A DNA stretch of 64,000 nucleotides, from the NCBI GenBank assembly GCA_022496185.1, contig WTXG01000189.1, positions 1 to 64,000 of the forward strand. The letters run 5' to 3'. Positions 17,774 through 62,600 of this stretch are shown piece after piece. The translations under genes were made by a program, and so were the position numbers. The notes below the pieces were generated by a model. It was not told the DNA's origin and searched no databases. It saw only the letters and a list, made by a program, of their open reading frames with translations. Each line of letters opens with the position of its first letter. Position 1 is the stretch's first letter. This stretch comes from Multifurca ochricompacta (taxonomy: Eukaryota > Basidiomycota > Agaricomycetes > Russulales > Russulaceae).

Positions 17774-18611
17774 ATGTTGACTCCGAAGACTCTCGCCACC
17801 AACATCTCGGCCGACAATGAAACCCGAATCTGGCGCATCGCAACAGCCCTGGATGCCGCCAACAAAACAGCAATAACGTTTCCCGCAACGGCACCGACGC
17901 TGCCTCCCACACCAGCACTACCGAATGAAGACCTGATTGTTACAAGAAGTTGGAATGCACTTGCCAACACATTTCTGCCGACCCCGCGGCCATGTCAGTC
18001 GACAACAGATCGTCATAGGTACACCCACCCTGGGCCGCCATTTCGTTCGAAACCACGTCCACTCGATGCACTACCAACACCGATGCATCAGGAGTAATGA
18101 AGGTCGCACCTTGCATGCCAGGTTCGTAAGCTTTAACTACCGACAATGTAACCCCCAGGTTCTTGCCACGATGAGTGAGAACCAGCCACTCTTCGCCATC
18201 GCGCTCCATGCTAGAAACCACTCTCGAACCCCACGACATCCCAATCCTCCGATTTCGCGCTTCCAACAGCAACTCTTCGACATGGAGATGCCTCACACTG
18301 AACTGGTCAACACCGCACTCGACGACTTACGCAATCTGAGAATTTGGGCCAAAGCGACAAGATTCCACACGACAACCAATGACCTAGACAAGGCGCATCG
18401 ATATCTCGCCATGGCAAAGAACTCATTTCGCCCTCCACGCCAAGAATCACCAACGAGACCCACAACGCTCTACACTGAGTGGATCAACACCGTGCTGGAT
18501 GACCTTCGCGACCCTGGGGTCTGGGCTGAGGTGACAAGATTCCGCACCACGACTAACGACTTGGACGTAGCCCAGCAGGCCATGGCCGCCGCACGAAAGC
18601 AAATAGAATAG
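17774..18611 (+). CDS. N1-specific 3' reading frame of unknown origin
   Basis: Not recognised. A frame from an ATG at 17774 to 18097 overlaps a second one, open from about 17937 to 18611 (225 codons). The second contains two copies of a roughly 38-residue unit: TALDDLRNLRIWAKATRFHT then TTNDLDKAHRYLAMAKN, and TVLDDLRDPGVWAEVTRFRT then TTNDLDVAQQAMAAARK, separated by a Pro/Arg/Thr linker. Gypsy-A has no counterpart. It may be captured host or other-element sequence, or a remnant of a longer ORF with a frameshift near 17940. No ATG fits the second frame well, so whether it is translated is unclear. Confidence 0.35.
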
Positions 18612-19313: not shown

Positions 19314-19318
19314 TAGAG

Positions 19319-33689: not shown

Positions 33690-34550
33690 TGGGCCCGGGT
33701 TCAATTCTGTTGGTAGCGCTTCAAATAACGATTTGAAGGGTTTGTTTGGTTAGTGGGATTCTGAAGGGATTAGGTGCGTTTAATCCAGTTTCTTTTGGGG
33801 GCTATTCTGACTGATTCAATCTGTCCTAGGTTGTGGGGATGAACATGGTAGAGGTCGACCGCAAGGGGTGTATGTTGGTAGGGAACCCAATATCTCCTGA
33901 AAGGTGCGTTCTCCTTTCGTAATTCTAATCAGCGTGTGTTCCTTTTCAGCTCCAGGTCAATGTCGTCGGTTAGTCGGATGGGAAGGAGGTCATCACAGCT
34001 GCAAGCTTCGTTTCGATGGATGTTTACTAAGGGTTCCTGGAGCAGTTTTGCTTCCGGTCGGGATTCTAGCAAGAGTTCAGGATTTGTGGGTTCGGCATGG
34101 AGTGGGGTGCTATCGATCGGGGAGTCACTTGCAAGAAGGGCAAGGTAGTTTCGGTTTTCAGGTAAGACGTGTTCAATTTTTTGGGGTTACTGATCTGTCT
34201 TCTAGGTTTTGATCCGGAGATTGGTATTCAAGGGACACGTTGTTTGTCGAAGAGTGCTGCGGAGTGGGACATTGTTGTTCGGGAATTCAGGGAAGGGGGA
34301 GGAGTCGTCCGAAGGTGTCCAAGGTTCCCTTGCGGAATAAGACGTCTTCATTCAGGGTTTGGGCAAGAGGATGCGGGTCTGGGTGAGTCTCCTTTCTTCT
34401 TAAGTTCTGGGGCCGGCAATTAGGATCGCTGGCGTCTGGGTGTTGGGGATCAAGTTCAGGGGTGTCTGGTGTCGGGGCGAGGGATGCGTCGTCGTCGCCT
34501 CGCGCGTTCAGTAAGTTCTTTTCTTTCTAAGTTCTGTAAGTCTGTTCTAA
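33690..34550 (-). other. Gypsy-A 5' leader
   Basis: About 0.86 kb between the primer site and the gag ATG on the minus strand. No credible gene. The start (34480-34550) aligns with the start of the N1 leader. Plus-strand frames at 33904-34654 are antisense to the element transcript. Confidence 0.55.
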
Positions 34551-34977
34551 TGTCACAGCCAGGTCTCTGCTGTGTCAAGGGTCGTTCTGGTCTGAGGTCC
34601 TCAAGATGCAAGACACATGCAAGCTCCAAGGTCAAGCTGTCAAAGGCAAACTGATTCAAGGTTCCAAGGCAAGCTACAGCAAGCTACGGTCAAGGTTCAA
34701 AGGCCCACAAGATACAAGAGGGCACGCGTCAATGTCAAGGTGTCAAGGCAAACCACAAGGGCCGTGTTCAAGGTTCAAGGCCCACACAAAATAGGAGGGG
34801 CGCGTGCAAGAAGCAAGTCAAGGCAGTGGCAATAGGCCCTGCTGAAGATCTGGGGTGAAGGCTTCCTAAGTTGCAGCTTGGGAAGTTCAAGAGGATTCTG
34901 ATAAAGACAAGTTGACCTGTATTAGATACAAGAGAACAGACTTAAGGTCTGTCTCTCCAAGATGTCCTGCTTAAATA
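34537..34977 (-). promoter_or_regulatory. Gypsy-A TATA box, self-primer and primer-binding site
   Basis: Reading the minus strand: TATTTAAG (34977-34970), 25 nt, then TAAGTCTGTTCT (34944-34933) as the predicted RNA 5' end. Two bases inside the LTR boundary (34551) is AGAACAGACTTA (34548-34537), a perfect 12-nt complement. This is the Tf1/sushi self-priming layout, and no tRNA-like TGG site follows the LTR. Confidence 0.8.
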
Positions 34978-39304: not shown

Positions 39305-39890
39305 TGTTACATCCAGTGCGGGACGTTCCACACGACTTGTGTGACAGCGTTCGTTCATGATCAGGTAAGGGACCAATGAGATCCCTTGGAGTTTAGACGG
39401 GAGGAGTCAAAGTCGACAAGGCTGTACTTGAAGACAATGTTAAGCGGAAAGTACCAGAAGTACTGAGAGGATCGAGTCAAGCATTCAAAGGGATGTCCAG
39501 AAGACAAGCACCAATGTATTCAATAAGTCGAGTCTGAAGTCTACAATGTAGTTACAGCGGACTTATATATGTAATTGAATGAGCATCTAAAGATAAGATA
39601 ACAGAGTCAGGTGGGCCCAAATATACGAAAGCGGATGGTGTAAAGCCTGGCTTCTGATAGGGTATTAAGTAAGTGTCCGGTCTTAGAGATAAGAAGATAA
39701 GTGATAAGAGAATCCATAGCAAAGGTAAATAACAGGTCAACATGGACAATCAATGGTCACAGGGATGGAAGCAGGGCATGTGAGGGATCCCAGGACGGGG
39801 ACATGATCAAGAAGTGGAGAGTAGGCAGAAGGGATGGGTTCTCGTTAGGGAGAGTGAAGAAAAGTGGGGTGCTAGGCCCTGGTCGTAACA
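39305..39890 (-). repeat. Gypsy-T1 3' LTR
   Basis: 586 bp, TGTTACATCC to GGTCGTAACA. I count about 17 substitutions against the 5' copy, all transitions, and all but one at positions that are CpG in one LTR or TG versus CA in the two. ORF3 ends 31 nt from the LTR on the minus strand, the gap holding a CAGAAGGGAGGGTGA purine tract. Confidence 0.93.
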
Positions 39891-39921
39891 TCACCCTCCC
39901 TTCTGGTTCAAGCTGACCCAG

Positions 39922-41147
39922 CTAGAAACGTGCACTGTCATTGTCCTGCACCAGGTCTACATAATCATCTGCCAGGTTTCGATCGTCAGTGGTATAAGTG
40001 TCATCAGCCGCGCATTGATGTGTGCGCAAGAAACCATATGGGCCGCGTCGTCCACATTGTTGGCATAAGTCGTGGATTGGGCAATTGAGTTCGCGGTGCC
40101 CTGCGTTGTGACGCAGACACTTGCTGCACCACCCTGAGGGGTTAACGATCGTCGGGGCGACACCCACGCGACGGAAAATGCAGAAGCGACTCCAATGCAG
40201 ATTACTCCGGCAGTGACGGCACCATTTGCGATTGAGTGGGCAGTTCCAGCTAATGTGATACTTGCTATCACATCACCAGCATGTCTCACCCCGGGGGTTC
40301 TCATGCATCCGTGGCATCTCAAACTAATTTGGCAGTAGTCGGGGGGCAGCCCCAATGATCGTGGGGGGAGCGGTTGTGCGTATGTGTCAGTGTACCTTTC
40401 AGCAATGGTTTGGTATGCATCCCTGATCTCCAATCTCTTCCGAATCTCTACCAACTCCTGTTCAACTTGGAACATCCCGTTAGTGAGTCAGGCCATCATT
40501 TTCGTGTGCTCCTTGTACTGTTTGTTGAGCGTTGTGCACAGTGTTAAATTCTTCCGCAGTCTCATGACTTTGGCTTTGAGACGTGGAAGGCGCATGTCAC
40601 TCATCACTTCATCAATTGCAAAGGTGTGAGAGTCCTTGGCGGCCAGATGTCCAAGCTGCTCGTCAGTCAACGTATGATGCAGACGTCCTGTATACCTTTC
40701 CTCTAAATAGACCGGGGCCCCGTAAACAGGGCCATCTTTCTTCATACAGCCTGCAACGTCCATCCCTCCATTGGTATAGAATATGTACTTGGCGATGGTG
40801 GTCATTCCATCAGCCATGGTGATCTCGAGGGGGAAGTACATGGATGAATTGGGGTTGTTAGCGATGAACAGAAATTCGGGTACTTCGTCATCTAGCTCCA
40901 TGCCCAACAGGTTGTTCAGGTGTGGCTCCTCACTGTGCTCAAAGTCATCGTTTGGGTTGGGGGATTGATTCTTGACTCGAGCTGCAGCGGCCTCATAGTC
41001 GATGGGCGAAGAGGGGCATGTAGAAGGATGGGCAGAGGGAAAGTTTTTGACAGTTATGTTGGTGGCAGTGAAAGCATCAATGGCAGTGTTGGCAGCGATG
41101 AAAGACATGATAGAGTGAATGGTGGTAGGATGTTGCTGTGGGAGCAT
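39922..41147 (-). pseudogene. T1 ORF3, decayed copy of zinc-knuckle third ORF
   Basis: Corresponds to the intact T3 ORF3. ATG at 41147, about 38 nt after the pol stop at 41188. The first part (to 40488) is open and ends at a TGA where T2 and T3 have Arg (KMMARLTNGM). The second part is in the same frame until about 40345, where a 1-nt loss in the GCTGCC run shifts the frame. Conserved blocks include NPNDDFEH, FPLEITMADG, KYIFYTNGGMDVAGCMKK, YGAPVYLEERYTGRLHH and YMLPQQ near the start. Zinc-knuckle codons are still visible at 40300-39950 in the correct frame. Confidence 0.85.
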
Positions 41148-41187
41148 GTACTGGGGAATTTCTTCGGAGTCTGCAGGTTGGTTCCTT

Positions 41188-44100
41188 TTAATTGTCTTTG
41201 GGCGCTTCTGGATGTCGGTCATGAAACTCTGAGATAAGGACCAGGGCAAAGATATTCCCGGTCGGCTCCCATGAGTTGTCAGAGTCTGGGAATCCTTTCC
41301 ACTTGACTAGGTAATGCAGTTTGCGCCCGTGGCCTTTTCGCTGGGAGTCTAGAATCCGCTCCACTTCCCATTCCGCTTCCCCATCGATTAATTCAGGGGG
41401 AGGTCTTGGGAAGTTTTCCCCGTGTAGGGTCGTCTCCCTATAGGGTGTCAGGAGTTTGGCATGGAAGACTGGGTGAATTCTCCATGTGGATGGAAGCTTG
41501 AGTTCATATGACATGTCTGACAGCTTCCTTGTTATCTTGAATGGTCCATGACATTGGGGTGCTAACTTGGCCATTGGGTGTGATGTATGAATGTTCTTCC
41601 CTTCCAGCCAGATGAGGTCATTGGTCTGATAAGGTGTGAATTTTGAAGGTCTGTCCATCAGAGCCTTTTGCGCCTTGAGCAGATTTTCATTGGCTGATTT
41701 CCTGACCTCATTCCATTGGTCGATATGCTGCGCAGCTAATGGAACATTTGTTGGCTTCTTGGTCCAGGTCATTCGCGGCGTCCATCCCATGATAAGTGAG
41801 AATGGAGGGGTTTTGGTGGTCCCATTGGGCCATGAGTTGTGCGCAAATTCTGCCATGGCTAGCCAATCAGCCCAATCATCCTGTCATCCATTGCACCAGA
41901 ATCGAAGGTACTGTTCTAGCCATTGGTTCATTCTTTCTGACTGTCCATCTGTCTGTGGATGGTAGGCGGTTGAAATGTTTTGGGTGATGTCCAAGACTTT
42001 ACAGAGTGCCTTGGCGAATGTGGAGGTGAAACGTGGGTCACGGTCAGAAATGATCTTTTCTGGGAGGCTGTAATGTCAGTAGATGTGATTCAGGTAAAGT
42101 TTGGCTACCCCTTCCGCTGTGATAGACTCGTTACATGGTATGAACAGTGCCACTTTGGAGCAGTCGTGGTCGGTGATAGTCAGGATTGAGTCAAAGCCTC
42201 TGGAGGTGGGGAGCTTGACAATGAAATCCATTGCAATGGTCTGGAATGGTAGTGAGGCCGTTGGTGTGATTGGGAACAATGCTGGTGGACGTGTATGCAT
42301 GTTTACTTTATTGGCCTGGCAGTCCGCACATCCTTTAACATAGTCTTCTACATCCTTTTTCATATTTGGCTACCAGTAGTCTCGTTTGGCCAGGGCGTAT
42401 GTGTTAGCAATGCCGGGGTGGCCTGCAGAGGGGAGGTCGTGGTGAAAATGGATCACCCTCCTCTTAATGTTGTCACCACCAGTGACAATGAGTTGATCAC
42501 CGTCCTTCCACCAAAGGCCATCTATCTCTTTCAGATTATGTGCTTCTGCCCAGGACTGGCAGAGTTGTTGGTTCATATTCTGTGATACTTGTGCCCATAA
42601 ATCCATATCATGGAGGCTGACAACTGCTGTACACGTAAAGACTTCTTCAGGGAGTATGGTGATATTTTCATTATCTTCTTCACCTCCTTGTTTATCTGCC
42701 CTTTGTGATAGAGCGTCCGCATGGGCGTTACGACTTCCAGCAATATGTTTTAGTGTGAAGTTGTACTCCTCAAGTTCCAGGACTTCACGGGCGACTCGTC
42801 GACTAATCTTATGGGGTTCCTTCCAATATAATAGGTTGGAATGGTCAGTGTGGATGACGGTTTTATGAGGGGTTCCGGCTAGATATGGTCTCCAATGTTG
42901 TAGGGCTTTTACAATGGCAAGGAGTTCGCGATCCCAAATGTCATAATTTCGTTCGGCTGGTGAGAATGTCTCGGAAAAGAAGGCCACTGGGTGGAGCACT
43001 CCCGTGGTGTCCCTCTGATTCAGTACTGCCCCATTGGCAAAGCGGGAGGCGTCGACTTCGAGTTCAAAAGGCTTTGCTAGATCCGGCTGCAGGAGGACAG
43101 GTTCTGAGCCAACAATGTCTCGGATCTGTTCAAATGCTTGTTGTTGCTCTTTTCCCCAGTGCCAGGGTATGTCCTTCTTTAACAACCCGTTAAGTGGTTG
43201 CGCGATTCCAGAGAATCCTTGTACAAAGCGTCAATAGAAGTTGCAGAATCCTATGAAGGATCTTACTTCTTTGACACATGTGGGCGTGGGCCATTCCCGA
43301 ATCCCCTGCACCTTCACCAGATCCATTCATACGTGCCCTCCTTCCAAGATGACCCCCAAGTACTCGACACTCCGTTGTTCAAATGAGCATTTTGACGGTT
43401 TGAGATATAGGTCATGCTCTTGTAGGATACTCAACACCTGGCGGACTCACTCCTGGTGATGCGGGAGGTCATCGGCAGTTGCCACTAATATGTCATCCAT
43501 GTACACCACTACCTCACCAGTGAGAATAAGGTCGCGGAAAATGTGATTCATCATTGATTGGAAGGTGGCTGGTGAGTTGGTAAGACCAAAGAACATGACA
43601 TTCAGCTCGAACAGGCCTTGGTTGGTTTTGAAGGCTGCCTTGCATTGATCTCCCTCCCTGATCCAGACGTTGTTATATCCCCATCGGACATCCATCTTTG
43701 AGAAGAGTGACTTGTCCCTCATGGTGTCAATGAGCTCTGAAATAAGAGGCAATGGATAGGCATTCTTTACTGTGTAAGCGTTTATGCATCGGTAATCTTG
43801 TACAGGTCGGAGCTTGCCATCCTTCTTTTTAATGAAGAAGAAGGGGGAGGCATACTGTGATTTGGATGGACGGATATATCCTTTTGCCAGTTGCTCTTCG
43901 AGAAACACTGTCAACTCTTCCTGCTCCCGTTGGGACAAAGGGTAGATTTTACAATCTATTGCCTGCGGTGTTTCTGGCACAAAATCAATAGCATGGTCCC
44001 AAGGGTGCGCTGGTGGGAAACGCTGCAACTCTTCTTCCGAGAACACCTTCCAATGTCGATGATAAGTGACAGGTACTACTTCTTCGAAGGTTTTCTCGGT

Positions 44101-44682
44101 TTGTCCTTGTACCGCTCTCTGGGCCAGTTCTGATGCTTTTGTGACGTAGCAACGTCCGGGGTCCTCTTTTTCCACTTCAGTGGTGCCATTGATCACTGCA
44201 TGCCGGGCCAGGTAATTGTATCCCAAAGATGTGATTAGGACTGGGTAAGAATCTTTGTCCATAGTGGCATCCGTCCAGTTAATCTTTGGTTCGAATGCCG
44301 CCAGCCATGGATATCCCAAAATGAGATCTTTGTCCCCTAGATTGGTGATGAGGAAACGAATGATCTTTGTGCTTTCTCCTACTTGGACGTTGAGATCAGT
44401 GTAGTGCGTGATTTTGCCTGCCCGGTTGGCTGTCCCGTCAATGTTCCAAATGTTTTTTTCTTGGGGGAGTGCCAGCATCCCCAGCCCCATAGTCTTTGCT
44501 AGTCGTGGACTGATGAAATTATTGGTAGCTCCTGAATTGACCAGGATGTCTCGATCGGCCGTCCTCTGTGTAGTTTCAAAATGTACTGGTATTTTCAGAG
44601 ATTTGAAGCGACTAGTATACACAGAGGTTACATGGAGTGCTCGTGCCCAGGCCGATGGGGTAGAGCCAATTAAAAATCCTTC
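41188..44682 (-). pseudogene. T1 pol: protease, RT, RNase H, integrase, chromodomain
   Basis: Pol overlaps the gag stop in the -1 frame and runs in a single frame for about 3.5 kb, but with about seven in-frame stops. Examples are near 43447, 43330, 43250, 42369, 42070 and 41882. Most are TGA where T3 has CGA or another Arg codon, and one is TAG for Trp. The protease reads LVNSGATNNF near 44550, where T3 has LVDSGATDNF, so the catalytic Asp is Asn. RT has [14 protein letters not shown] and YMDDILVA near 43500. Integrase has [17 protein letters not shown] and GQSERMN. The chromodomain (EWEVERILDSQRKG, LHYLVKWKGFPDSDNSW) ends at 41188. No frameshift was found, in contrast to T3. Confidence 0.92.
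44670..44682 (-). promoter_or_regulatory. Putative -1 gag/pol frameshift site, AAGGATTTTTAA
   Basis: Gag ends AAG GAT TTT TAA, and pol is open across it in the -1 frame (GGA TTT TTA). The five-T run directly before the stop would let tRNA slip back by one. The same string ends gag in T3 (63136-63147), although flanking bases differ. No strong downstream structure was evaluated. Confidence 0.55.
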
Positions 44683-46171
44683 TTTGTGAACACCTTCTTG
44701 ACTAAGATGGCGCGCACTTCCTCACTCTCCTTCATCATATTTGCCCATATGTCCTGGGCCTTTTCTTCTTTAGTTTGTTTGTCTGTCGTAGGTGGGTTAC
44801 TGATGGGGTGAACTGGGGTGGTAGTAGCTTCAGCAACACGTGCCCCCTTCTTTGGACAGTCTCGAGACATATGTCCTTGTGCTTTACATCGGAAGCACCG
44901 ACCCTCTTTCATCAACGTTTGACGCTCATCCTCTGTGAGCGTTGCCCTAGCTCGGGTCCTATCTGCCAAGGTATCCATGGCATTTGGATCCCTCTGGTGA
45001 TGCATAGGTTTGACGCCAAAGGCTGCTTTCCACTGGTCTCGGGTTTTCCCTTTCTTAGTGTCAACCCCAAAACGTGTTTGGAAGTCGAGGTAATCCTGTT
45101 GCTGTCGCCGGGCGGCATCAACCCAGGTATCCCAATCATTGGGGTGATGAAACTGTATGATGTTTTTCACCAAAGGGTTCGGTAACCCTTGGGAGAAGAG
45201 GTCCAATGTGGCCTCTTTGTCGGTGTCATACCCGGCTCTATTGGCCAAGCTTCTGAACTTGGCGATGTAGGCATCAAGGTCTCCTTTGTCCATCTTTAGA
45301 GACTTCAATTCACGGGCCGCCTTCTGTTTGGCTTGCCCGTCCGTAAATGCATCTTTAAACCTCTGGGCAATTGTTTCCCAGAGGTTTTCACTTGTGGTCC
45401 GTCGTCCACTCTCTATTTGTTCGTTCAGCCACTCCAACTGCTCCATCGTCCAGTCGTCTACTGCCTCTCCTCGGATAAGGGAGAGGAAGAGATTAGCCCA
45501 CTGGAACAGGTTAATAATCTGGGCGACGTCGTGGTTGAAGTTTTTGAAGGTAGTGAACTCCAACATAAACTTCTTGCTTTGTGAGCGATCCCCTGTGAAC
45601 GTCTGGGGTAATACGCCTGACAGCCGTCCCGAAGGTGGAGGAATGTTTGGCGGTGCCATGACTGGGGTGGAGGGGCTGGGTCGGGAAGTTGAGCGGCAAT
45701 GGTGGACATATTCTGGTAAAACGGGGTGACTGTGTCGGTAGATTGTATGGATATCTGAGGAGTTGTCAAAGCAGGGGCTCTGATCGTGACAACTGTGGGT
45801 GCAACTGGGGCGGTAGTCGATGCTAATACCAGTGCTTCTTCACTGTTTTCTTCCACGTACTCTTCTGGTTCAGAGTCCGTAACGATGGCTGGGGGATTTT
45901 CTCTCCACGGTCCTAATCCAAATTCTGGTGGTGCAGGTCCTGTAGTGACCCAAGAGTGTCGGCTTTCTGAGTATCAGATACAGTACCAAACTCTTTTCTC
46001 GTCGTTGTATTCTACTGGTTGGTATCTTCTGTTGTGATAAACATAGTATCCAAACTCGGATTCAAAGTCTTTCCAGGCGGCAGAGCCAAGTACTTGTTGT
46101 GAAAGATTATTCTCGTCTCTGCATTCGATGAGTTCTTCTTTAAACAGGGTCTGACTGCGGCTGGAAGCCAC
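44670..46171 (-). pseudogene. T1 gag
   Basis: The main open part (45659-44670) carries the retrotransposon gag domain (DDWTMEQLEWLNEQ, FKDAFTDGQAKQKAARELKS, YIAKFRSLANRAGYDT) and a zinc knuckle CFRCKAQGHMSRDC near 44890. It ends KKDF at TAA 44672-44670. Upstream sequence to about 46171 is coding-like in another frame (acidic, DSEPEEYVEENSEEA) with a TGA near 45975. A 1-nt shift near 45700 separates the two. The expected initiator near 46171 is GTG, so the start is uncertain. Confidence 0.82.
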
Positions 46172-46177
46172 GATGAG

Positions 46178-46455
46178 AGACTCGACTTGATGTTACGTCC
46201 GGTGCAGGACGTTCCACACAACTTGTGTGACAGCGTTTGTTTGTGATCAGGTAAGGGACCAATGAGATCCCTTGGAGTTTAGACGGGAGGAGTCAAAGTC
46301 GACAAGGCTGTACTTGAAGACAATGTTAAGCAGAAAGTACCAGAAGTACTGAGAGGATCGAGTCAAGCGTTCAAAGGGATGTCCAGAAGACAAGCACCAA
46401 TGTATTCAATAAGTCGAGTCTGAAGTCTACAATGTAGTTACAGCAGACTTATATA
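46178..46455 (-). promoter_or_regulatory. T1 TATA box, self-primer and primer-binding site
   Basis: Minus strand: TATATAAG (46455-46448), 26 nt, then AGACTCGACTT (46421-46411). Two bases after the LTR boundary at 46191 lies AAGTCGAGTCT (46188-46178), a perfect 11-nt complement. This matches the Tf1 self-priming design, in which 11 nt of the RNA 5' end anneal beside the LTR. Confidence 0.82.
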
Positions 46456-46776
46456 CATAATTGAATGAGCATCTAAAGATAAGATAACAGAGTCAGGTGG
46501 GCCCAAATATACAAAAACAGATGGTGTAAAGCCTGGCTTCTGATAGGGTATTAAGTAAGTGTCCGGTCTTAGAGATAAGAAGATAAGTGATAAGAGAATC
46601 CATAGCAAAGGTAAATAACAGGTCAACATGGACAATCAATGGTCACGGGGATGGAAGCAGGGCATGTGAGGGATCCCAGGACGGGGACATGATCAAGAAG
46701 TGGAGAGTAGGCGGAAGGGATGGGTTCTCGTTAGGGAGAGTGAAGAAAAGTGGGGTGCTAGGCCCTGGTCGTAACA
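46191..46776 (-). repeat. Gypsy-T1 5' LTR
   Basis: 586 bp, TGTTACGTCC to GGTCGTAACA, followed by CACGG. Confidence 0.93.
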
Positions 46777-53400: not shown

Positions 53401-54068
53401 CTTTTTAGGGCCTCTTTAGACATGTGGCCCATTCTTTGATGCCAGATTTCTAGTGAGGCAGATGCATTTGTATGGATAGTGCTTAGGACGTGTTTGCCTA
53501 GTACCCAATACAATTTGCCAAACTTCCATGCTTCCGCTATAATATTGTCGCCATATTTTATTGTTGCCTTCTTATTATCAAAGAACACAGTTGCCCCTTT
53601 CTCTACTAGGGCACTGGCGGAGAGTATTTTATGTCCTCCAGGCAAGTGAAGCACATTGCTCAATTCCAGGTCAAAACCTTGATCAGTCCTGATGACCACG
53701 GTTCCAACTCCATTTGTTTTGACTACAGAGTTGTCACCTAGTGATACTTCATGGGTGTGATCGACTTCATATGTATCGAAGTCTTCAAGGTTGGGACTGA
53801 AATGAGCCGTTGCTCCACTATCAAGCATCCAATAATCTGAGTTGATGTCCAGATTATAGGTGTGAACATAAAGGCGAATGTGAGGTGCTTCATGCACCTC
53901 CTCTATTTTGCCACTACCATTAACTACGGTGGCTATAGTGTTTACATGTTGGGCCTCAGCCCTCTTCTTGTTCCCTGCCTTGCCCTTTTTGGCATTTTCC
54001 AGGTCCTTCTTCTTCTTTGCGCAAGCATTGGACTTGTGTCCAGGCTTTTGGCAATAGAAGCAGACCAC
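50493..54068 (-). CDS. Copia-2 pol, intact 1191-codon frame
   Basis: A continuous frame from the gag zinc knuckle to the end of RNase H. Knuckle CFYCQKPGHKSNAC at residues 3-16. Protease MLDSGATAHF with catalytic Asp at 83. Pre-integrase WHQRMGHMSKEAL and CYGCEMGK. Integrase DDE features (LHSDLVGPL, DRGGEYVN, NGRAERFNRTIMEK). RT has QMDVKSAFLHGDLDEEIYME, LYGLKQASRAW and YVDD at 872-875. RNase H has GFADSSWGDQEDCHSTSGY, STTEAEYMSLAEA and CDNKGAVDLALNPVTG, and ends LADGLTKSLPR. The first codon of the frame is not ATG. The frame should be translated as part of a gag-pol polyprotein from the ATG at 54811, but gag frameshifts now separate them. All catalytic residues I can check are present, so the enzymes could work if expressed. 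Confidence 0.93.
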   Translation of the reverse strand: MVCFYCQKPGHKSNACAKKKKDLENAKKGKAGNKKRAEAQHVNTIATVVNGSGKIEEVHEAPHIRLYVHTYNLDINSDYWMLDSGATAHFSPNLEDFDTYEVDHTHEVSLGDNSVVKTNGVGTVVIRTDQGFDLELSNVLHLPGGHKILSASALVEKGATVFFDNKKATIKYGDNIIAEAWKFGKLYWVLGKHVLSTIHTNASASLEIWHQRMGHMSKEALKRYAPEAVKGLKINNSQVEDKPCYGCEMGKSHRLPFPPSSKRASAPLEILHSDLVGPLQCSSIQGNLYFATFLDDFSRYALIVPMKSKDLFTPVFNKLKTLLENKFNHKIKCLHTDRGGEYVNKALKATLEDYGIEHKLTMPYSPQQNGRAERFNRTIMEKGTSMLHNAGLSLGFWECAVETACHIYNRTPIRSNKWKTPLELLVGNKPDVSYFKVFGCKAYYHVPEGKRRKLDPKAREAVFVGYEPTSKGYTLWDSHTRSLIFSRDVTFDERSFPSRSVKDSRADKPVEQPIEGGSFTLPGGPVQPPPAAATHVPEAPQDEEDLEEEQEDIVPPQLIPQPTTPTHNVDTTHPQTIYQTPPSQIMEPSSPPKRTKAIRKSQRIADRIPQPNFQRTSPRSERRDRAIQEDLDLDTACPNRNRCLNPRFYNEDNAEFVQGSSRLGQMDLLNAAGSPYRDPLTFKEAMESDNASDWLEACQYEIDALEKLKVWRLEDLPEGRKAVKSKWVFKLKADGRFRARLVAKGFTQIEGVDFDETFSPVARFESLRLLLALAALEDWEIHQMDVKSAFLHGDLDEEIYMEQPIGFIVAGQESKVCRLQKALYGLKQASRAWNLQFHAVLNELSFTRTYSDAGVYVYHHQEGDGSLFVILYVDDITILGSSTKKIQWLKDSLSSRYEMTDLGEIQSYLGVNITRDRPNKTLDIDQTAYVSSIVERFGMGDSNPVYTPLPSGVDVHLVKFEDQASTSDIKRYQQLMGSLLWVQIGSRPDISFAVARLSQFASNPSQQHMRLAKYVLAYLNATKDYKLRYSGGNGEVGLHGFADSSWGDQEDCHSTSGYVFFLANGAISWCSRKQKTVAQSTTEAEYMSLAEASNQAAWYRTFMQELGYEVSSPIQLHCDNKGAVDLALNPVTGRRSKHIPIKYHAIREYVESHQIDLVRTPTGEMLADGLTKSLPRSSFDHMVTGFGLVLE

Positions 54069-54811
54069 CCCTTGTGAACCAGGGGCAGCAGCGGGAAGTG
54101 GTGATAAATTTTTTTTTGGTTTGATTTGACAGGTGCAGCCTTAGACAGGACTGCACTACCACTTCCCGAGGGACCCGCCAGGCGACTTCCTCATTTAGGA
54201 ACCTCTGCACAAGGTCCTGAGGAGAAAGACGCTCTGGATCGCCAGAGGCCAGTATGGAGCCGGCAATGGCACTGTAGGAGTCTGGGAGAGCTTTTAATAA
54301 AATGAAGCTCATCTGGAGGTCATTGACCTCCATCCCATTCTCCCTAAGGGTACTCCTGGCATCTAGGACCTTTTGTAATTGGGTCCTGAATGTCTGTCCT
54401 TCATCAAGACGGAAGGACACCAGGGCAAGCCACAAATTATATGTGGCCATGCTACCTACAGAGCCATAAAGCCGCTCCAACTTATTATACTTCTCAAAAA
54501 GAGAAGGATAATCGGCATCGGAGGTTACTTGACTGTAAACCTCCTGGGTTACATTGAGATAGAGTAGCCCAATTAGCATTTCCTCTTCTCCCATCCATTC
54601 CCTAAGGATGGGGTCAATCACTTCCTTCTGCATTTTCTCCTTCTCCTCTTTATCTTCTGGGAGGAGGGGCATATCAGGGTAGGCGTGATATGTGCCTCCT
54701 AAGCCCATTCATCCTCAAAAGGGCATTGAAGTTGGCAGACCAAACCTGCCAGTTGGAGCCATCGAGGCGCTCCATCTTGGAGGAGGGAGGGAAGACAATT
54801 GAGGACGGCAT
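54069..54811 (-). pseudogene. Copia-2 gag, frameshifted
   Basis: ATG at 54811 begins a Ser/Pro-rich start, then LDGSNWQVWSANFNALLRMN, matching Copia-1 gag (DGSNWQQWSVSFTALLRIN). Near 54700 the frame changes and continues VTQEVYSQVTSDADYP, LYGSVGSMATYNLWLALVSF, DLQMSFILLKALPDSYSAI and LSPQDLVQRFLNEE. After LNEE (near 54174) one base is missing relative to Copia-1, and an A9 run near 54112 appears one base short, so the knuckle lies in another frame. The lesions are few and simple, and some could be consensus errors. Confidence 0.85.
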
Positions 54812-56096: not shown

Positions 56097-56683
56097 TGTT
56101 ACGTCCGGTGCGGGACGTTCCACACGACTTGTGTGACAGCGTTCGTTGCGAATCAGATAAGAGATCAATAAGACCTCTTGGAGTATCGACGGGAGGAGTC
56201 AGAGTCAAAGAGGCTGTACTCTTAGACACTGTTGAGCGGAAAGTACCAGAAGTACTGAGACGATCGAGTCAAGGGCCTTCAAAGGGATGTCCAGAAGACA
56301 AGCACCGATGTATTCAATAAGTCGAGTCTGAGTCTACAATGTAGCTACAGTGGACTTATATACGTAATCGAATGAGTGTCTAAAGATAAGATAACATGGA
56401 GTCATGTGGGCCCGAATATACGAAAGCAGAGGGCGTAGAGCCTGGCTTCTGATAGGGGATTAAGTAAGTGTCCGGTCGTAAAGATAAGGGATAAGGGATA
56501 AGAGATAAGAGCCCAAACACGAGTACAGTAACACAAACATAAGCAAAGACAGTCACGGGGAAGGGAGTAGGGCACGTGAAGGATCCCACAATGGAGACGT
56601 GATCTGATAATGTAAAGTGGGTGGCAAGGAGGGGTCGTCGTTAGGTAGGAGAAAGAAAGTCGGAAGAGATGGGGTTCGTAACA
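56097..56683 (-). repeat. Gypsy-T2 3' LTR
   Basis: 587 bp, TGTTACGTCCGG to GTTCGTAACA. Contains the aagtcgagtctgag block that includes the complement of the self-primer. Purine tract CAGAAGAGGGGGTGA lies between it and ORF3. Confidence 0.92.
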
Positions 56684-56714: not shown

Positions 56715-57765
56715 CTAGAAACGACTCGTACCGTCATCATCCTGTATCAACTCCAAGTAATCGTTGGCTACATTACGATCATCCATCGTATAGTTCTCCT
56801 TGTCTGAATCTTGTGGACATTGGTGGGTACGAAGGAACCCATACGGACCGCGCTGACCACACAGGCAGCACATGTCGTGGACCGGGCAGTCCAACTCGCG
56901 ATGCCCTGAGTTGTGGCGGAGGCACTTGCCACACCATCCCGACGGATTGACGATTGTTGGGGCAACTCCCATGCGACGGAAGATGCAGAACCGGCTCCAA
57001 TGGAGGTTGCTGCGACAGTGCCGACACCACTTGCAGTTCAGGGGGCAGTTCCAGCTGATATGATACCTGCTGTCACATCGCCAGCATGTTTCTCTGCGAG
57101 GGTTCTCATGCATACGCGGCATCTCGAATCGATTTGGTAGCAGTTGCGGGGCAGCCCCCAACAACCGTGGAGGAAGGGGTCGGGCGTATGTATCGGCGTA
57201 CCTTTCGGCGATGGTCTGGTATGCATCCCCTATCTCTAGCCTTTTTCTGATCTCCACCAGTTCCTGCTCTATCTGGAACATCCCGTTGGTCAACCTCGCC
57301 ATCATCTTCGCATGTTCTTTGTATTGTCTGTTGAGAGTGGTGCGCAACGTCAAATTCTTCCGCAGTCTCATTACCTCTGCTTTGAGACGTGGGAGGCGCA
57401 TGTCGTTTAACACCTCGTCAATCGCGAAGGCGCGAGAATCCTCGGCGGCCAAGTGCCCAAGTTGTTCGTCAGTCATCGTGTGGTGCAGCCGTCCAGTATA
57501 CCTTTCTTCCAGATAAACTGGAGCTCCATACACGGGGCCACCCTTCTTCATACATCCTGCAACGTCCATCCCTCCATTGGTGTAGAATATGTATTTAGCA
57601 ATGGCAGTGGTTCTGTCAGCCATGGTGATCTCGAGAGGGAAGTACATGGAGGAGTTGGGATTGTTAGCAATGAATGGAAACTCGGGTACTTCGTCTTCCG
57701 GTTCCATGCCCAACAGATCGTTTGGGTGCGGCTCTTCACTATGTTCGAAGTCATCATTGGGGTTG
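56715..57765 (-). CDS. T2 ORF3, 5' end cut off by T3
   Basis: An open frame of about 350 codons from the T3 insertion point (NPNDDFEHSEEPHPNDLLG) to a stop at 56715, aligned without gaps to T3 ORF3. It includes the knuckle-like array CWRCDSRYHISWNC, CRHCRSNLHWSRFC, CGKCLRHNSGHRELDC and CCLCGQRGPYG followed by HQC. Many nucleotide differences from T3 fall at third codon positions while the protein is conserved. That suggests the ORF was under selection in both lineages. Function unknown. The knuckle pattern implies nucleic-acid binding. Confidence 0.85.
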
Positions 57766-58357
57766 TGTTATGTCCGGTGTGAGACGTACTGCACGACTTG
57801 TGCAACAGCTTCGTTCGTGTGTTCAGATAAGAGGCCAATAGGACCTCTTGGAGTTTTAGTGGGAGAGTCAAAGTCAAAGGGGCCGTTCCCTAGTGACAAT
57901 GTTGAGTGGAAAGTGCCGAAAGCACTGAGATGATCGAGTCAAAGGGTCCAAGGGAAAGTCCAAAAGACAAACACCGATGTATTCAATAAGTCGAGTCTGA
58001 GGTCTACAAGGTAGCTACAGTGGACTTATATACGTAATTGAGTGGGCGTCTATAGATAAGATAACAGAGTCAGGTGGGCCCAAATATACGGAAGCGGACG
58101 GCGTAAAGTCGGGCTTCTGATAGGGTATTAAGTAAGTGTCCGAGCATAAAGATAAGGAGATAACAAGATAAGAGATAAAGGGTCAATCATAGGTACACAA
58201 CGAGTCAACAAGTCCAAAGCAGGTCACGGGGAAGGGAGCAAAGCACGTGATGGGTCCCAGGATGGGGACGTGATCATGAAGTGCAAGGTAGGCGGCAGGG
58301 ATGGGTCGCTGTTGGGGAGGTGGAAGAAAATGGGGTTGCTCGGTAGAGATTGTAACA
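57766..58357 (-). repeat. Gypsy-T3 3' LTR
   Basis: 592 bp, TGTTATGTCCGG to GATTGTAACA. About 80-85% similar to T1 and T2 LTRs by eye. TATATAAG box on the minus strand near 58030, with the agactcgactt self-primer after it. Confidence 0.92.
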
Positions 58358-58388
58358 TCACCCCCTCTTCTGGTTCTAGCAGACCCGG

Positions 58389-59627
58389 CTAGAAACGACT
58401 CGTACCGTCATCATCCTGTACCAACTCCAGATAATCGTCGGCTACATTACGATCATCCATCGTATAGTTCTCTTTGTCTGGGTCCTGCGGACATTGGTGG
58501 GTGCGGAGGAAGCCGTATGGACCGCGTTGACCACACAGGCGGCACATGTCGTAGATTGGGCAATCCAACTCGCGATGCCCCGAGTTGTGGCGGAGGCACT
58601 TACCGCACCACCCTGATGGATTGACGATTGTTGGGGCAACTCCCACATGGTGGAAGATGCAGAACCGGCTCCAGTGGAGGTTGCTGCGACAATGCCGGCA
58701 CCACTTGCGGTTCAAGGGGCAGTTCCAACTGATGTGATACTTGCTATCGCATCGCCAGCACGTCTCTCCACGAGGGTTCTCGTGCATCCGGGGCATTTCG
58801 AATCGGTTTGGTATCAGCCTCGGGGCGGCTCCTAATGATCGTGGGGGGAGGGGTCGTGCATACGTGTCGGCGTACCGTTCAGCAATCGTCTGATACGCGT
58901 CTCCTATTTCCAGCCTCTTCCTGATCTCCACCAACTCCTGTTCCACTTGGAACATTCCATTCGTCAGCCTTGCCATCATCTTTGCATGCTCTTTATATTG
59001 TTTGTTAAGCGTTGTGCACAATGTCAAAGTCTTCCGCAGTCTCATCACCTCAGCTTTGAGACACGGAAGGCGCATATCGTTGAGCACCTCATCGATAGCG
59101 AAGGCGCAGGAGTCTTCGGCAGCCAGGTGTCCGAGCTGCTCGTCAGTCATCATGTGGTGGAGCCGTCCTGTATACCTTTCTTCTAAGTAGACTGGGGCCC
59201 CATAGACAGGGCCATCTTTCTTCATACACCCAGCTACATCCATTCCTCCGTTGGTGTAGAATATGTATTTGGCGATGGCAGTGGTCCCGTCAGCCATGGT
59301 GATCTCGAGAGGGAAATAGGTCGAAGAGTTGGGGTTGTTGGAAAAGAAAGGAAACTCGGGCACCTCATCATCCAGCTCCATGCCCAGCAGATCATTCGGA
59401 TGTGGCTCTTCATTGTGTTCGAAATCGTCATTCGGGTTCGGGGACTGATTTTTAACTCGGGCCTCGGCTGCCTCATAATCAATGGGGGAAGAGGGACGTG
59501 TGGAGGGGTGAGCAGAGGGGAAATTCTCGACAACTACAGTGGTGGCCGTGAAGGCATCAATGGCAGCGTTGGCAGCGACAAAAGACATGATAGATTGGAT
59601 GGTGTTAGAACGTTGCTGGGAGAGCAT
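58389..59627 (-). CDS. T3 ORF3, intact third ORF with four zinc-knuckle-like motifs
   Basis: 412 codons from ATG 59627, 35 nt after the pol stop (59663) and in another frame. It ends 31 nt before the LTR. I do not recognise it as gag, env or any standard Ty3/Gypsy product. The N-terminus (MSFVAANAAIDAFTAT, SPIDYEAAEARVKNQSPNP) is followed by an acidic patch (DDEVPEFPF) and a conserved core (FPLEITMADGTTAIAKYIFY, GGMDVAGCMKKDGPVYGAP, YLEERYTGRLHH). Then comes a probable coiled coil (LPCLKAEVMRLRKTL, VEQELVEIRKRLEIG). The C-terminus holds CWRCDSKYHISWNC and CRHCRSNLHWSRFC (both C-x2-C-x4-H-x4-C), CGKCLRHNSGHRELDC (C-x2-C-x6-H-x4-C) and a looser CRLC ... HQC. The tail is acidic (DDDGTSRF). A dimeric nucleic-acid-binding accessory protein is a reasonable guess. 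Expression may need re-initiation or a spliced RNA. Confidence 0.85.
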   Translation of the reverse strand: MLSQQRSNTIQSIMSFVAANAAIDAFTATTVVVENFPSAHPSTRPSSPIDYEAAEARVKNQSPNPNDDFEHNEEPHPNDLLGMELDDEVPEFPFFSNNPNSSTYFPLEITMADGTTAIAKYIFYTNGGMDVAGCMKKDGPVYGAPVYLEERYTGRLHHMMTDEQLGHLAAEDSCAFAIDEVLNDMRLPCLKAEVMRLRKTLTLCTTLNKQYKEHAKMMARLTNGMFQVEQELVEIRKRLEIGDAYQTIAERYADTYARPLPPRSLGAAPRLIPNRFEMPRMHENPRGETCWRCDSKYHISWNCPLNRKWCRHCRSNLHWSRFCIFHHVGVAPTIVNPSGWCGKCLRHNSGHRELDCPIYDMCRLCGQRGPYGFLRTHQCPQDPDKENYTMDDRNVADDYLELVQDDDGTSRF

Positions 59628-59662
59628 GTACTGGGGAATTAACAGGGTCTGAGGCACTTCTT

Positions 59663-62600
59663 TTAAGCATTCTTCGGCGCTTCTGGGTGTCGGATGTGGA
59701 ACTCCGAGATAAGGTCTGGGGCAAAGATATCCCCGGCTGGTTCCCACGAACTGTCAGAGTCTGGGAATCCCTTCCACTTGATTAGGTAGTACAGTCTGCG
59801 CCCTCGGCCTTGTCGCTTGGAGTCTAGGACTCATTCCACTTCCCACTCTTCTTCACCATTGATAAGGTCAGGTGGAGGTCTCGGGAAGTTCTCTCCGTGG
59901 ATGGAGGTCTCCCTGTAAGGGGTCAGAAGCTTGGCGTGGAAGACTGGGTGGATCTTCCATTTCGGCGGCAATTTCAATTCATATGATACGTCTGACAGCT
60001 TCCTGGTGATCTGGAAGGGTCCGTGACGTCGGGGCGCTAGTTTGGCCGTGGGGTGTGATGTGTGAATGTTCCTGCCCTCGAGCCATACCCAGTCATTGGT
60101 CCGATAAGGTGTGAATGTGCTTGGCTGTGCTGCCAGGAGTTGTTGCGCCTTTACCAGATTCTCATTGGCCGATTGTCGTAGTTCTTCCCATTGGCTTATT
60201 CGTTCGGTTGCCGACGGGACGTTGGTGGGCTTATCTGTCCATGTGGTGCGTGGGGTCCAGCCCATGATAAGGGAAAAAGGGGTGGCTTTTGTCGTGCCAT
60301 TGGGCCATGAGTTGTGGGCAAACTCCGCGGTTGATAGCCATTCTGCCCAGTCATCTTGTCTGCTGTTACACCAGAATCGGAGGTACTGTTCTAGCCATTG
60401 GTTCGTTCGTTCAGACTGTCCGTCCGTTTGGGGATGGTATGCTGTAGAGATGTTCTGCGTGATGTCCAACGTTTTGCATAGGGCCTTTGCAAATGCCGAT
60501 GTGAAACGGGTATCCCTATCAGAGATGATCTTCTTGGGGAGCCCGTAGTGACGGTATACGTGGTCCAGGTACAGTTTTGCCACTCCTTCGGCTGTGATGG
60601 TTTCGTTACAGGGGATAAAGAGGGCCGCTTTAGAGCAATCATGGTCTGTGATTGTGAGGATAGTGTCGAAGCCTTGTGATTTGGGCAGCTTGACAATGAA
60701 GTCCATGGCAATGGTCTGGAACGGAGTTGACGCAGTGGGAGTGATGGGGTACAGTGGTGGGACTTTCGGGTGCGTGTTTACCTTGTTTGCTTGACATGCC
60801 GCGCATCCCTGTACGTAGCGTTCAATGTCCTTTTTCATATTGGGCCACCAGTAGTCTCGTTTGGCCAAGGCGTAGGTGTTGGCGATGCCAGGATGGCCAG
60901 CGGAGGGAAGGTCGTGATGAAAATGGATCACCCCCTCTTAATGTTGTCGCCACCGGTGACAATGAGTCGATCCCCGTCCTTCCACCAAAGACCATCAATT
61001 TTCTTTAAATTGTGAGCGTCAGCCCATGAAAGGCACAGGTCTTGGTTCATATTTTGGGAAACCTGTGCCCACAGGTCCATGTCGTGGAGACTGACCACGG
61101 CCGTTTTTGCAAAAACTTCTTCCGGGAGGACAGTGATGTCATTGTTGTCGTCCTCTCCTGTATGCATATCTGGCCTACGTGACAGTGCATCTGCTCTAGC
61201 GTTCTGGCTCCCTGCGATGTGTTTCAGCGTAAAGTTGTATTCTTCCAACTCTAAGACCTCTCGTGCCACACGTCGACTGATTTTGTGGGGTTCCTTCCAA
61301 TATAATAGATTGGAATGGTCGGTGTGGATGATGGTCTTATGCGGGGTCCCTGCCAGGTAGGGTCGCCAGTGTCGCAATGCCTTGACTATGGCTAAGAGCT
61401 CCCTATCCCAGATATCATAGTTCCTTTCGGCTGAGGAGAAGGTTTCGGAGTAGTATGCCACTGGGTGAAGTATTTGTGCGGCGTTTCTTTGATATAGTAC
61501 TGCTCCGTTTGCAAAGCAGGAGGCGTCCACCTCTAGTTCAAAGGGGTGACTCAGATCCGGCTGAATGAGTACCGGTTCTGACCCGACAAGGTCCCTGATC
61601 TGTTCGAATGCCTGCTGCTGTGCCGTACCCCAGTACCATGGTACATCCTTTTTCAGTAGGTCGTTCAATGGTCGTGCTACGCCTGAAAATCCCTTGACGA
61701 ATCGTCGGTAGAAGTTGCAGAATCCAATGAATGACCGGACATCTTTGACACAGGTTGGCACGGCCATTCTCGGATCCCTTGTACTTTAATGGGGTCCATA
61801 CGCACTCGTCCTCCTTCCAGGATGACTCCTAGGTACTCGACACTCCGCTGCTCAAAGGAACATTTGGCAGGCTTGAGATACAGGTCATGTTCTTGTAATA
61901 TGTCCAGCACCTGGTGCACTCGGTCTCGATGGTGGTCTAAATTGTCTGAAGTAGCGACCAGGATGTCGTCCATGTAGACCACTACTTCTCCTGTGAGAAT
62001 AAGATCGCGGAAGATATGATTCATCATAGACTGGAATGTTGCCGGCGAATTCGTGAGACCAAAGAACATGACATTGGGTTCGAACAATCCTTGATTTGTC
62101 TTGAACGCTGCCTTGCACTGATCACCTTCCTTGATTCTAACATTATTGTAGCCCCACCGCACGTCCATTTTTGAGAAGAGAGATTTATCCCTCATAGTGT
62201 CGATGAGTTCAGAGATGAGCGGCAGGGGTAGGCATTTTTCACGGTGTATGCATTGATTCGTCGATAGTCCTGAACTGGCTGCAGCTTGCCATCCTTCTTC
62301 TTGATAAAGAAGAAGGGCGAGGCATACTGTGATTTGGATGGGCGAATGTAACCTTTGGCCAAATGTTCTTCAGGAATTCTGTTAACGCTACCTGCTCCGA
62401 CTGGGACAGTGGGTAGATTTTACAATCTATGGCGGTTGGTGTCTCCGGGAGTAGGTCTATGGCATGGTCCCATGGTCTGGAGGGTGGAAAGCGCTGGGAT
62501 TCTTCCTCGGAAAATACCTTCCAATGCCGATGGTAGGTGTTCGGCACTATGTCGCTGTATGTCTTCTCTGTCTGCCCCTGTATTGCCTTTTGAGCTAATT

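Follow-up and report, generated by a model that had tools for sequence, protein, structure and literature searches.

A conserved third gene, neither gag nor Env-like, in a family of chromodomain Gypsy elements of Multifurca ochricompacta

Third open reading frames in and around the window

We analyzed a stretch of 64,000 nt (hereafter the window; contig WTXG01000189.1, positions 1 to 64,000) in which three LTR elements, T1, T2 and T3, carry a frame (ORF3) between pol and the 3' LTR (Table 1). The interval 56715-59627 contains a remnant of T2 ORF3, the whole T3 3' LTR, and T3 ORF3. T3 is a complete insertion within T2 ORF3; its 5' LTR lies just beyond the window edge (C100:64664-65255), T2-type sequence continues from 65256, and GGTTG is found on both flanks of T3. 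T2 ORF3 is therefore cut rather than complete: of what had been claimed for this copy, the C-terminal part and the gap of 31 nt between stop and LTR stand, but the copy is split by T3. T1 ORF3 is broken by small deletions, and T3 pol is broken because its integrase frame stops ahead of the chromodomain.

The T3 frame was originally predicted to be intact and to end 31 nt before the LTR, and both its extent and the gap were confirmed (stop-to-stop frame 58389-59753, minus strand; first ATG at 59627). We fetched the best-scoring 30 of 101 scored ORF3 loci, drawn from 2223 candidates. ORF3 length is exactly identical in 29 of these 30 loci, and the 31-nt gap is likewise found in 29, T3 included (30 nt in the remaining locus). 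By our own count, 73 of the 101 scored copies are free of internal stops. Sequence comparison suggests that translation probably starts at ATG2 (codon 14) rather than ATG1, since codons 1-13 are weakly constrained (median dN/dS of 0.18 vs 0.025-0.053 in later blocks), one locus (L029) retains in frame only ATG2, and several predicted ORF3 relatives also have an M[NST] N-terminus.

The distant partial relative of ORF3 in the window belongs to another LTR element that is internally deleted (15344-19314; LTRs 15344-15769 and 18889-19314, 99.3% identity), downstream of an integrase C-terminal remnant (17157-17447, recognised by eye).

Table 1. Features of the ORF3-bearing elements in the window (splice boundaries are marked by a slash)
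Feature	Position	Strand	Remarks
T3 ORF3	58389..59627	minus	412 codons counted from ATG1
T3 ORF3, likely start ATG2	59588	minus	codon 14 (MSF...); from dN/dS, L029 and relatives' starts
Conserved beta core	59187..59357	minus	residues 91-147
Long helix, probable coiled coil	58860..59066	minus	residues 188-256; AlphaFold2 helices 188-241 and 244-256
NES-like leucine pattern	59019..59048	minus	V-x2-L-x3-L-x-L, residues 194-203
Four Cys/His arrays	58491..58760	minus	residues 290-379; pattern in 30/30 loci
Candidate 3' splice sites	59615..59633	minus	CAG/TACATG (CAG 59633-59631) and, 15 nt on, CAG/CAACG (CAG 59618-59616)
T3 3' LTR	57766..58357	minus	99.66% identity to T3 5' LTR over 592 bp
T3 polypurine tract	58358..58371	minus	AGAAGAGGGGGTGA; adjoins 3' LTR
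T3 integrase part of pol	59831..60937	minus	frame stops ahead of chromodomain
T2 ORF3, C-terminal 349 codons	56715..57764	minus	interrupted by T3 insertion
T2 3' LTR	56097..56683	minus	begins 31 nt past T2 ORF3 stop
T1 ORF3	39922..41147	minus	several small deletions, some of frameshifting length
T1 3' LTR	39305..39890	minus	97.1% identity to 46191-46776; TGTTAC...GTAACA ends; CACGG flanks
T1 5' LTR	46191..46776	minus	paired with 39305-39890
T1 gag, main open part	44670..45659	minus	Retrotrans_gag and one CCHC knuckle
T1 pol, protease and RT part	43447..44622	minus	domain matches
T1 candidate splice donor	45855..45860	minus	GTACGT; about 150 nt upstream of gag AUG (45709)
Distant partial ORF3 relative	17937..18608	plus	A4 profile, E 4.5e-18

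Features of the predicted protein

Members of the ORF3 family share a common core and a long helix, a probable coiled coil, and usually Cys/His arrays. Arrays 1 (C290-x2-C-x4-H-x4-C303) and 2 (C310-x2-C-x4-H-x4-C323) fit the CCHC zinc-knuckle pattern exactly, and arrays 3 (C341-x2-C-x6-H-x4-C356) and 4 (C362-x2-C-x11-H-x-C379) are variants of it; zinc binding is predicted from the pattern. The original prediction had described the same set (two exact arrays, one with x6 spacing and one looser) in T3, and we recovered all four in every fetched locus. All 16 ligands are unchanged in the 17 rows of our alignment A7. The Pfam model zf-CCHC (PF00098) reaches 3 of 77 family members at E ≤ 0.01. The protein has a pI of 5.7 (7.7 for residues 280-412), unlike a typical basic RNA-binding protein. 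The AlphaFold2 model is weak (pLDDT 64.4, pTM 0.39; an earlier model from 10 sequences had a pLDDT of 48), and Foldseek found no match for it among PDB and viral models at E ≤ 0.001. A PDB sequence search returned one match, a nucleocapsid protein, which is not significant (E 0.097). The highest 19-residue Kyte-Doolittle mean, a measure of hydropathy only and not a dedicated predictor, is 1.46 (at residue 15).

Coding constraint

ORF3 is a genuine gene under strong purifying selection, constrained as gag is and more strongly than pol. The median dN/dS is 0.036 (29 copies; 400 of 406 pairs with dS > 0.02), a value lowered by the choice of best-scoring loci, which favours preserved copies, and obtained with NG86 near saturation in many pairs; close pairs (dS 0.1-0.3) give 0.09-0.13. 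Reading the same region in the other two frames gives 2.1 and 3.0. Among longer copies, dN/dS is 0.036 for gag (n=11, 24 pairs), 0.035 for ORF3 (n=21, 203 pairs) and 0.075 for pol (n=17, 100 pairs), and integrase gives 0.059 (from the 22 of 30 loci whose integrase spans 280 codons or more); loci were selected on the ORF3 score and not on pol or integrase, which lowers ORF3 relative to these two. Codon differences fall mostly at third positions (56658 vs 11346 + 5482 at first and second positions, a ratio of 3.4 to 1). Between T2 and T3, for which purifying selection had been proposed from third-position differences, ORF3 shares 83.9% of bases over 1050 nt and 91.4% of residues over 349. The dN/dS test suggested along with that proposal also came out in its favour, the value being far from 1, and a passenger ORF was rejected on the same figure.

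Absence of ORF3 from most intact family members, another outcome that would have counted against the gene, was not seen; this comparison is incomplete, ORF3 having served to fetch nearly all copies, and at least 43 of 112 integrase places found independently of ORF3 are paired with a scored ORF3. Ty3/Gypsy elements are generally held to need no more than Gag and Pol. A third gene constrained like gag and present at 167 scored places in this one genome suggests that these fungal elements have a further requirement.

Family membership and relatives

The host element family is of the chromovirus (chromodomain Ty3/Gypsy) type, as tested on one copy (L044) whose pol contains protease, RVT_1, RNase H, H2C2, rve (below the Pfam cut-off), SH3_Tf2-1 and Chromo (E 1.7e-15) and whose gag matches Retrotrans_gag. 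In the copies read, all from this genome, ORF3 is a sense ORF whose place is fixed, after the pol stop and ahead of the polypurine tract that precedes the 3' LTR. Profile searches identified 90 ORF3 relatives (31-42% identity) and a second branch of 81 further relatives, and profile comparison unites both branches over the core, the long helix and the first two knuckles. Relatives occur in many public contigs. In a distant family of the same genome (L051), integrase and a Pfam chromodomain are directly followed by an ORF3 relative in an open frame of 420 codons. This relative has no knuckles, so knuckle-based RNA binding is not universal in the family.

No Pfam model describes the ORF3 family, and annotation is therefore likely to list its genes among the 'hypothetical proteins' of the host. 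Pfam gave no gag/capsid or env match in ORF3, in agreement with the expectation that ORF3 would match no known gag or env family. A gag duplicate was rejected, as HHalign of ORF3 against a 4-row gag set overlaps in just 21 knuckle columns (probability 6.8%). An enzyme was rejected as well, with no enzyme match in Pfam and no match in NCBIfam (a library for bacteria and archaea) for 5 proteins. Scanning IMG/VR gave 56 stretches that fit the pattern, none of them an ORF3 relative. The analysis supports ORF3 as a genuine third gene of this chromodomain Gypsy family, neither gag nor Env-like.

Comparison with known systems

The original prediction held that Ty3/Gypsy elements normally have only gag and pol, and sometimes env; this was too narrow, as the available sections of three papers provide precedents for extra ORFs (PMC7264820, PMC5408684, PMC2864245). 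In plant LTR elements, additional ORFs (aORFs) lie between pol and the 3' LTR and are retained by most copies of a family; they are env-like when in sense orientation (Bagy2, a sense aORF element, is cited as spliced) and antisense in Grande, RIRE2, Retand and the fungal element Boty (PMC7264820, sections available). They resemble ORF3 as extra genes in the same place with no assigned function, but the antisense ones run opposite to ORF3 and the sense ones are called env-like; the likeness is by description, and the word zinc is absent from that review (PMC7264820). Bdelloid rotifer LTR elements have diverse third ORFs after pol, and those named in the available text are Env, GDSL esterase and DEDDy exonuclease, whereas the fungal ORF3 has no enzyme match (PMC5408684). 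A figure legend on fungal Gypsy elements, in a survey that includes four Agaricomycetes, mentions an unexplained 'add. ORF'; the accessible text gives no sequence, motif or position by which to compare it with ORF3 (PMC2864245).

CERV, encoded by the C. elegans element Cer1, is an accessory protein distinct from both Gag and Env; its mRNA is spliced, and export of the genomic RNA depends on its Cys loop (PMC10309623, sections available). It shares with ORF3 its accessory nature and conserved cysteines; compared by description, CERV has G and M domains and the Cys loop, whereas the ORF3 family combines a beta core, a long helix and several Cys/His arrays (PMC10309623). Retroviral nucleocapsid (zf-CCHC, PF00098) resembles ORF3 in the two exact C-x2-C-x4-H-x4-C arrays; ORF3 differs in lying outside Gag and in having four arrays, two with non-standard spacing. 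Elements of plants, rotifers and fungi already offer examples of extra ORFs; we did not find the ORF3 protein family described in openly licensed papers (Repbase not included); the available parts of PMC2774666, PMC3411680 and PMC5006619 have no bearing on it.

Expression signals

A conserved pyrimidine-AG just upstream of ATG1 resembles a 3' splice site. The acceptor-like AGTACATGCT is unchanged in 29/29 loci, with pyrimidines only at -9 to -6 and no branch point identified, and a more divergent locus (L053) keeps both YAGs with TATATG instead. The candidate donor is the only donor-consensus GT fixed in 13/13 copies across R-U5 and leader (last 330 nt of the LTR plus 560 nt of leader); GTRNGT is expected once or twice per sequence of that length by simple base odds, and the donor GTAYGT doubles as code for conserved residues. 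An early donor candidate in the 5' gag frame (CAA/GTACTT) was set aside for lack of G at +5. Among 40 scored leader places, 11 were testable for spliced retrocopies by hand comparison (those with a scored ORF3 at most 6 kb away in the same orientation); none was seen, because the leader-ORF3 spacing is about 5.0 kb in all 11. The frame of ORF3 relative to pol is the same in L015, L020, L044 and L046 and shifted in L002, L005 and L031. This variation between subfamilies argues against fixed frameshifting or readthrough from pol, which was rejected.

Proposed role and alternatives

In the explanation we favour, a chromovirus lineage of basidiomycete type has long carried ORF3 as a functional accessory gene. 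With a probability of about 0.5, its product is a trans-acting RNA-binding accessory protein that serves the element's own genomic RNA. Splicing of the leader donor to the acceptor before ORF3 would yield an ORF3 mRNA, as in retroviruses; the protein would self-associate through its long helix, its knuckles would bind the unspliced genomic RNA of the element, and it would help this RNA leave the nucleus and reach Gag. Self-association via the helix and RNA binding via the knuckles are likely. That the protein is translated from a spliced mRNA, joining a donor ahead of the gag AUG to an acceptor immediately before ORF3, has in our judgement slightly less than an even chance given the sequence signals. 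That the target is the unspliced genomic RNA, aided in nuclear exit and in reaching Gag, is a tentative suggestion by analogy to Rev and CERV. Of the functions named in the original prediction, nucleic-acid binding, packaging, RNA stability and silencing escape may each apply.

Tandem CCHC arrays are typical of nucleocapsid, and ORF3 might serve only as a second nucleocapsid-type packaging factor or particle protein, packaged with Gag and acting as an RNA chaperone during genome dimerisation, packaging or reverse transcription but playing no part in nuclear export. Its gag-like constraint and the non-significant PDB match point that way; we consider it rather unlikely, as a CCHC knuckle is already present in Gag itself, ORF3 lacks a capsid domain and aligns with gag over the knuckle columns only, and translation of a separate cistron downstream would call for an mRNA of its own or for reinitiation. 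A suppressor of host silencing, binding small or double-stranded RNA to blunt silencing of the element, would also be an RNA-binding accessory protein, and such a role is proposed for additional ORFs of plant Tekay elements in the available part of PMC11728184; it is improbable here, since Pfam finds no dsRNA-binding domain in ORF3 and the very strong conservation is unlike that of an arms-race protein. We give similarly poor odds to a chromatin or integration co-factor whose putatively SH3/Tudor-like core would read chromatin and, with the integrase chromodomain, choose or protect insertion sites.

The two remaining explanations are hardly tenable. Position between pol and the 3' LTR and the splice-acceptor-like signal upstream would suit an Env-like gene, but ORF3 has no strongly hydrophobic segment and no Env-family match; Env was rejected on these grounds, as had been anticipated. 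Captured genes are known in LTR elements, yet a host gene captured recently and retained accidentally, or an ORF that is simply a passenger, is at odds with the low dN/dS, with conservation across the whole family and with the same position in the distant family (L051).

Under the favoured accessory-gene reading, a further and quite doubtful step would be that these elements are complex retrovirus-like chromoviruses, with a spliced subgenomic mRNA and ORF3 as a knuckle-bearing, CRM1-using analogue of Rev or CERV that exports the unspliced genome. If true, ORF3 would represent an accessory gene for RNA export that arose independently, outside animals and animal viruses, and that extends across two branches of a protein superfamily without a previous name; if both splicing and RNA export hold, the logic of complex retroviruses arose in fungi too. 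The NES-like pattern in the long helix fits the favoured accessory-gene reading: its four hydrophobic positions are unchanged in 17/17 rows of A7, but these leucines may simply reflect coiled-coil or helix packing. The same pattern is also found at residues 178 and 232, giving three occurrences in T3 ORF3.

ORF3 is a conserved gene of the chromodomain Gypsy elements

ORF3, the third frame between pol and the 3' LTR of the window's three related minus-strand chromodomain Ty3/Gypsy elements (T1, T2 and T3), is a real gene. T3 is full in length, is inserted in the ORF3 of T2 and extends past the window end (T2-type sequence is found again from 65256 on, beyond the T3 5' LTR); its ORF3 is open although its pol is broken. 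Well-preserved copies elsewhere in the genome (loci L044 and L046) are organised as LTR, leader, gag, pol, ORF3, a 31-nt stretch containing a polypurine tract, and LTR, and their gag and pol overlap in different frames. According to Pfam, the L044 gag contains one knuckle, and its pol contains protease, RT, RNase H, integrase and a chromodomain (E 1.7e-15). The order integrase-chromodomain, ORF3, LTR is also found in L053, a copy from another subfamily of the first ORF3 branch (see below).

Searching the 53.8-Mb genome with ORF3 gave 2223 first-look candidates; among the 101 that were scored, 73 have no internal stop (hand count). TGA is the sole stop type in 26 of the other 28 (also by hand), a pattern expected from methylated CpG decay (CGA to TGA), which is presumably its cause. 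At least 167 scored ORF3 places were compiled across searches. Among 112 scored integrase places, located independently of ORF3, at least 43 are followed on their own strand by a scored ORF3 at a distance of 210–267 bp. The count is a minimum, since in each ORF3 search about 100 candidates were scored out of about 2000.

Thirty ORF3 loci were studied, the best-scoring ones and therefore a biased sample. ATG1-to-stop is 1239 nt without net indel in 29 of them (L029 lacks one base near ATG1). The original prediction of purifying selection holds in these 29 copies: median dN/dS is 0.036 (400 of 406 pairs, dS > 0.02), not near 1, as compared to 2.1 and 3.0 when ORF3 is read in frames +1 and +2. 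Close pairs (dS 0.1–0.3) give 0.09–0.13, which would be expected if decay has already set in among recent copies. Integrase dN/dS, taken from the 22 of these 30 loci that have 280 or more integrase codons, is 0.059. In long copies, dN/dS is 0.035 for ORF3 (n=21, 203 pairs), 0.036 for gag (n=11, 24 pairs) and 0.075 for pol (n=17, 100 pairs), so the constraint on ORF3 is about that on gag; since loci were picked by ORF3, part of its gap to pol may reflect copy selection.

ORF3 proteins form two branches

T3 ORF3 matches no Pfam model at E ≤ 1, and among 77 family members only zf-CCHC (3) and PNRC (1) were found at E ≤ 0.01; five family proteins have no match in NCBIfam, a prokaryotic library. 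The profile search proposed for T3 ORF3 did find relatives. One homologue from a single-sequence search opened the way to an alignment search. Of the 91 proteins that this search returned at E ≤ 0.1, 90 reach E ≤ 2.5e-52 and share 31–42% identity with T3 ORF3. The weakest and last match, P0091 (E 0.018), leads to a second branch of at least 82 proteins, itself included (E ≤ 0.01). Profile-profile comparison (17 first-branch versus 34 second-branch rows) gives 97.2% probability and E 3.9e-11 over 225 columns, which span the core, the helix and knuckles 1 and 2. Four zinc-knuckle-like arrays had been described, and all 16 metal ligands are indeed invariant in the 17-row first-branch alignment; in the 77 rows that combine the two branches, the ligands are nearly invariant in arrays 1 and 2 and partly kept in arrays 3 and 4.

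With P0091 as query, 79 places were found in the same genome (23–32% identity, E 1.3e-14 to 9.8e-4). At the one of these places that was read in detail, on another contig (C588, locus L051), an integrase with a Pfam chromodomain is followed by an ORF3 relative in a 420-codon open frame (E 1.9e-24 to the ORF3-family profile), which has the core and helix, no Cys/His arrays, and a His/Arg-rich tail instead. The post-pol place is thus common to at least two distant families, and the C-terminal tail is variable. The nucleic-acid-binding part may be swapped among families, given this tail. L049 contains a 3.85-kb insert similar to the 4-kb element in the window (448-bp LTRs, 100% identical; weak ORF3 relative, family-profile E 5.4e-6); both are, to judge from their sequences, recent non-autonomous derivatives retaining the ORF3 region.

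The original prediction held that Ty3/Gypsy elements normally have only gag and pol, sometimes env. Accessory ORFs of LTR elements are in fact a known kind: published papers report extra ORFs downstream of pol in plants and an antisense one after pol in the fungal element Boty (PMC7264820), ORFs at the 5' side in plant Tekay chromoviruses (PMC11728184) and several kinds in rotifer elements (PMC5408684). For fungal elements, one figure also labels an 'add. ORF', whose function is given as unknown (PMC2864245). Our literature search found no description of the ORF3 protein family, and the superfamily and its constraint appear to be new.

Start codon and possible expression of ORF3

ATG2 (codon 14) is the better candidate for the start than ATG1, because codons 1–13 are less constrained (dN/dS 0.18 versus 0.025–0.053 in later blocks), ATG2 is the only ATG remaining in frame in L029, and several predicted family members start with M[NST]. 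Pol ends about 35–40 nt upstream of ATG1, and translation by termination-reinitiation across this short spacer is possible. Subfamilies differ in the frame that ORF3 occupies relative to pol, so ORF3 is not joined to pol by a fixed frameshift or readthrough.

The features around ATG1 suggest possible splicing. AGTACATGCT (-5 to +4) is invariant in 29/29 copies and is the longest invariant run between -14 and the stop (the next longest is 9; only 6 of 87 fourfold sites in the ORF3 body are invariant). Positions -9 to -6 are C or T only, and L053, which has TATATG, keeps the YAG. This stretch looks like a 3' splice site, and a second YAG 15 nt downstream, if used as acceptor, would give ATG2 as the first start codon. 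In 13 copies, the LTR's final 330 nt together with 560 nt of leader contain 28 fully conserved GT dinucleotides, of which one meets the donor consensus (GTACGT in 11 copies, GTATGT in 2). It lies at +331, counted from the end of the LTR, and 151 nt upstream of the first AUG common to 13/13; by base odds, 1–2 such donor-type sites are expected per sequence, and this GT doubles as coding for conserved residues. A candidate donor before the gag AUG and a candidate acceptor before ORF3 would be the layout of retroviruses. No branch point was found, and no spliced retrocopy was seen: of 40 scored leader places, 11 lie within 6 kb of a scored ORF3 on the same strand, and the leader-ORF3 spacing there, compared by hand, is 5.0–5.1 kb.

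We infer that ORF3 may be made from a spliced mRNA, as a self-associating knuckle protein that would bind the element's genomic RNA and aid its export and delivery to Gag; the closest working analogue is Cer1 CERV (PMC10309623). The main rival is a second nucleocapsid-type role.

Other features of the elements and the window

Upstream of the first AUG common to 13/13, the gag frame continues open and codon-like over about 160 codons (T1 45709–46190, leaders of L031–L048), with dN/dS 0.151 and a low dS of 0.35 (n=14), and a stop at the LTR end precedes this extension. The pattern suggests an extended Gag via a non-AUG start or leader splicing. The purine tracts after pol in both families are similar to the 3' polypurine tract; each is possibly a central polypurine tract or a relic predating the gain of ORF3. 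The minus-strand pieces at 7799–12152 are probably a single intron-containing fungal STAND/NLR-type gene.

Features of the elements and the window
Feature	Position	Strand	Remark
Ankyrin array	7799–10300	minus	99-nt repeat
NACHT/NPHP3_N piece	10335–10943	minus	
Goodbye-like piece	11658–12152	minus	weak
4-kb LTR element	15344–19314		426-bp LTRs, 99.3% identical; most of gag-pol lost; integrase C-terminal remnant
Partial ORF3 relative	17937–18608		inside the 4-kb element
Ty1/Copia element	19651–24743		Pfam copia-type domains in 19651–21357 and 22222–23883
Ty1/Copia element	50493–54708		long similar frame 50493–54068, recognised by eye
LTR-like repeats	28121–28470, 34545–34894		appear to flank another Gypsy element, 29776–33425
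Inverted partner of these repeats	21754–22098		
T1	39305–46776	minus	LTRs 586 bp, 97.1% identical; CACGG at both flanks
T3 3' LTR	57766–58357	minus	99.66% identity to 5' LTR over 592 bp
T3 ORF3	58389–59627	minus	412 codons from ATG1
T3 post-pol purine-rich tract	59657–59666	minus	after pol stop; TTAAAAG then purine
T3 5' LTR	C100:64664–65255	minus	same contig, outside the window; GGTTG at both T3 flanks
L051 post-pol purine-rich tract	L051:1280–1294		after pol stop; TTAAAGAAGGGGTGA
L051 ORF3 relative	L051:1295–2557
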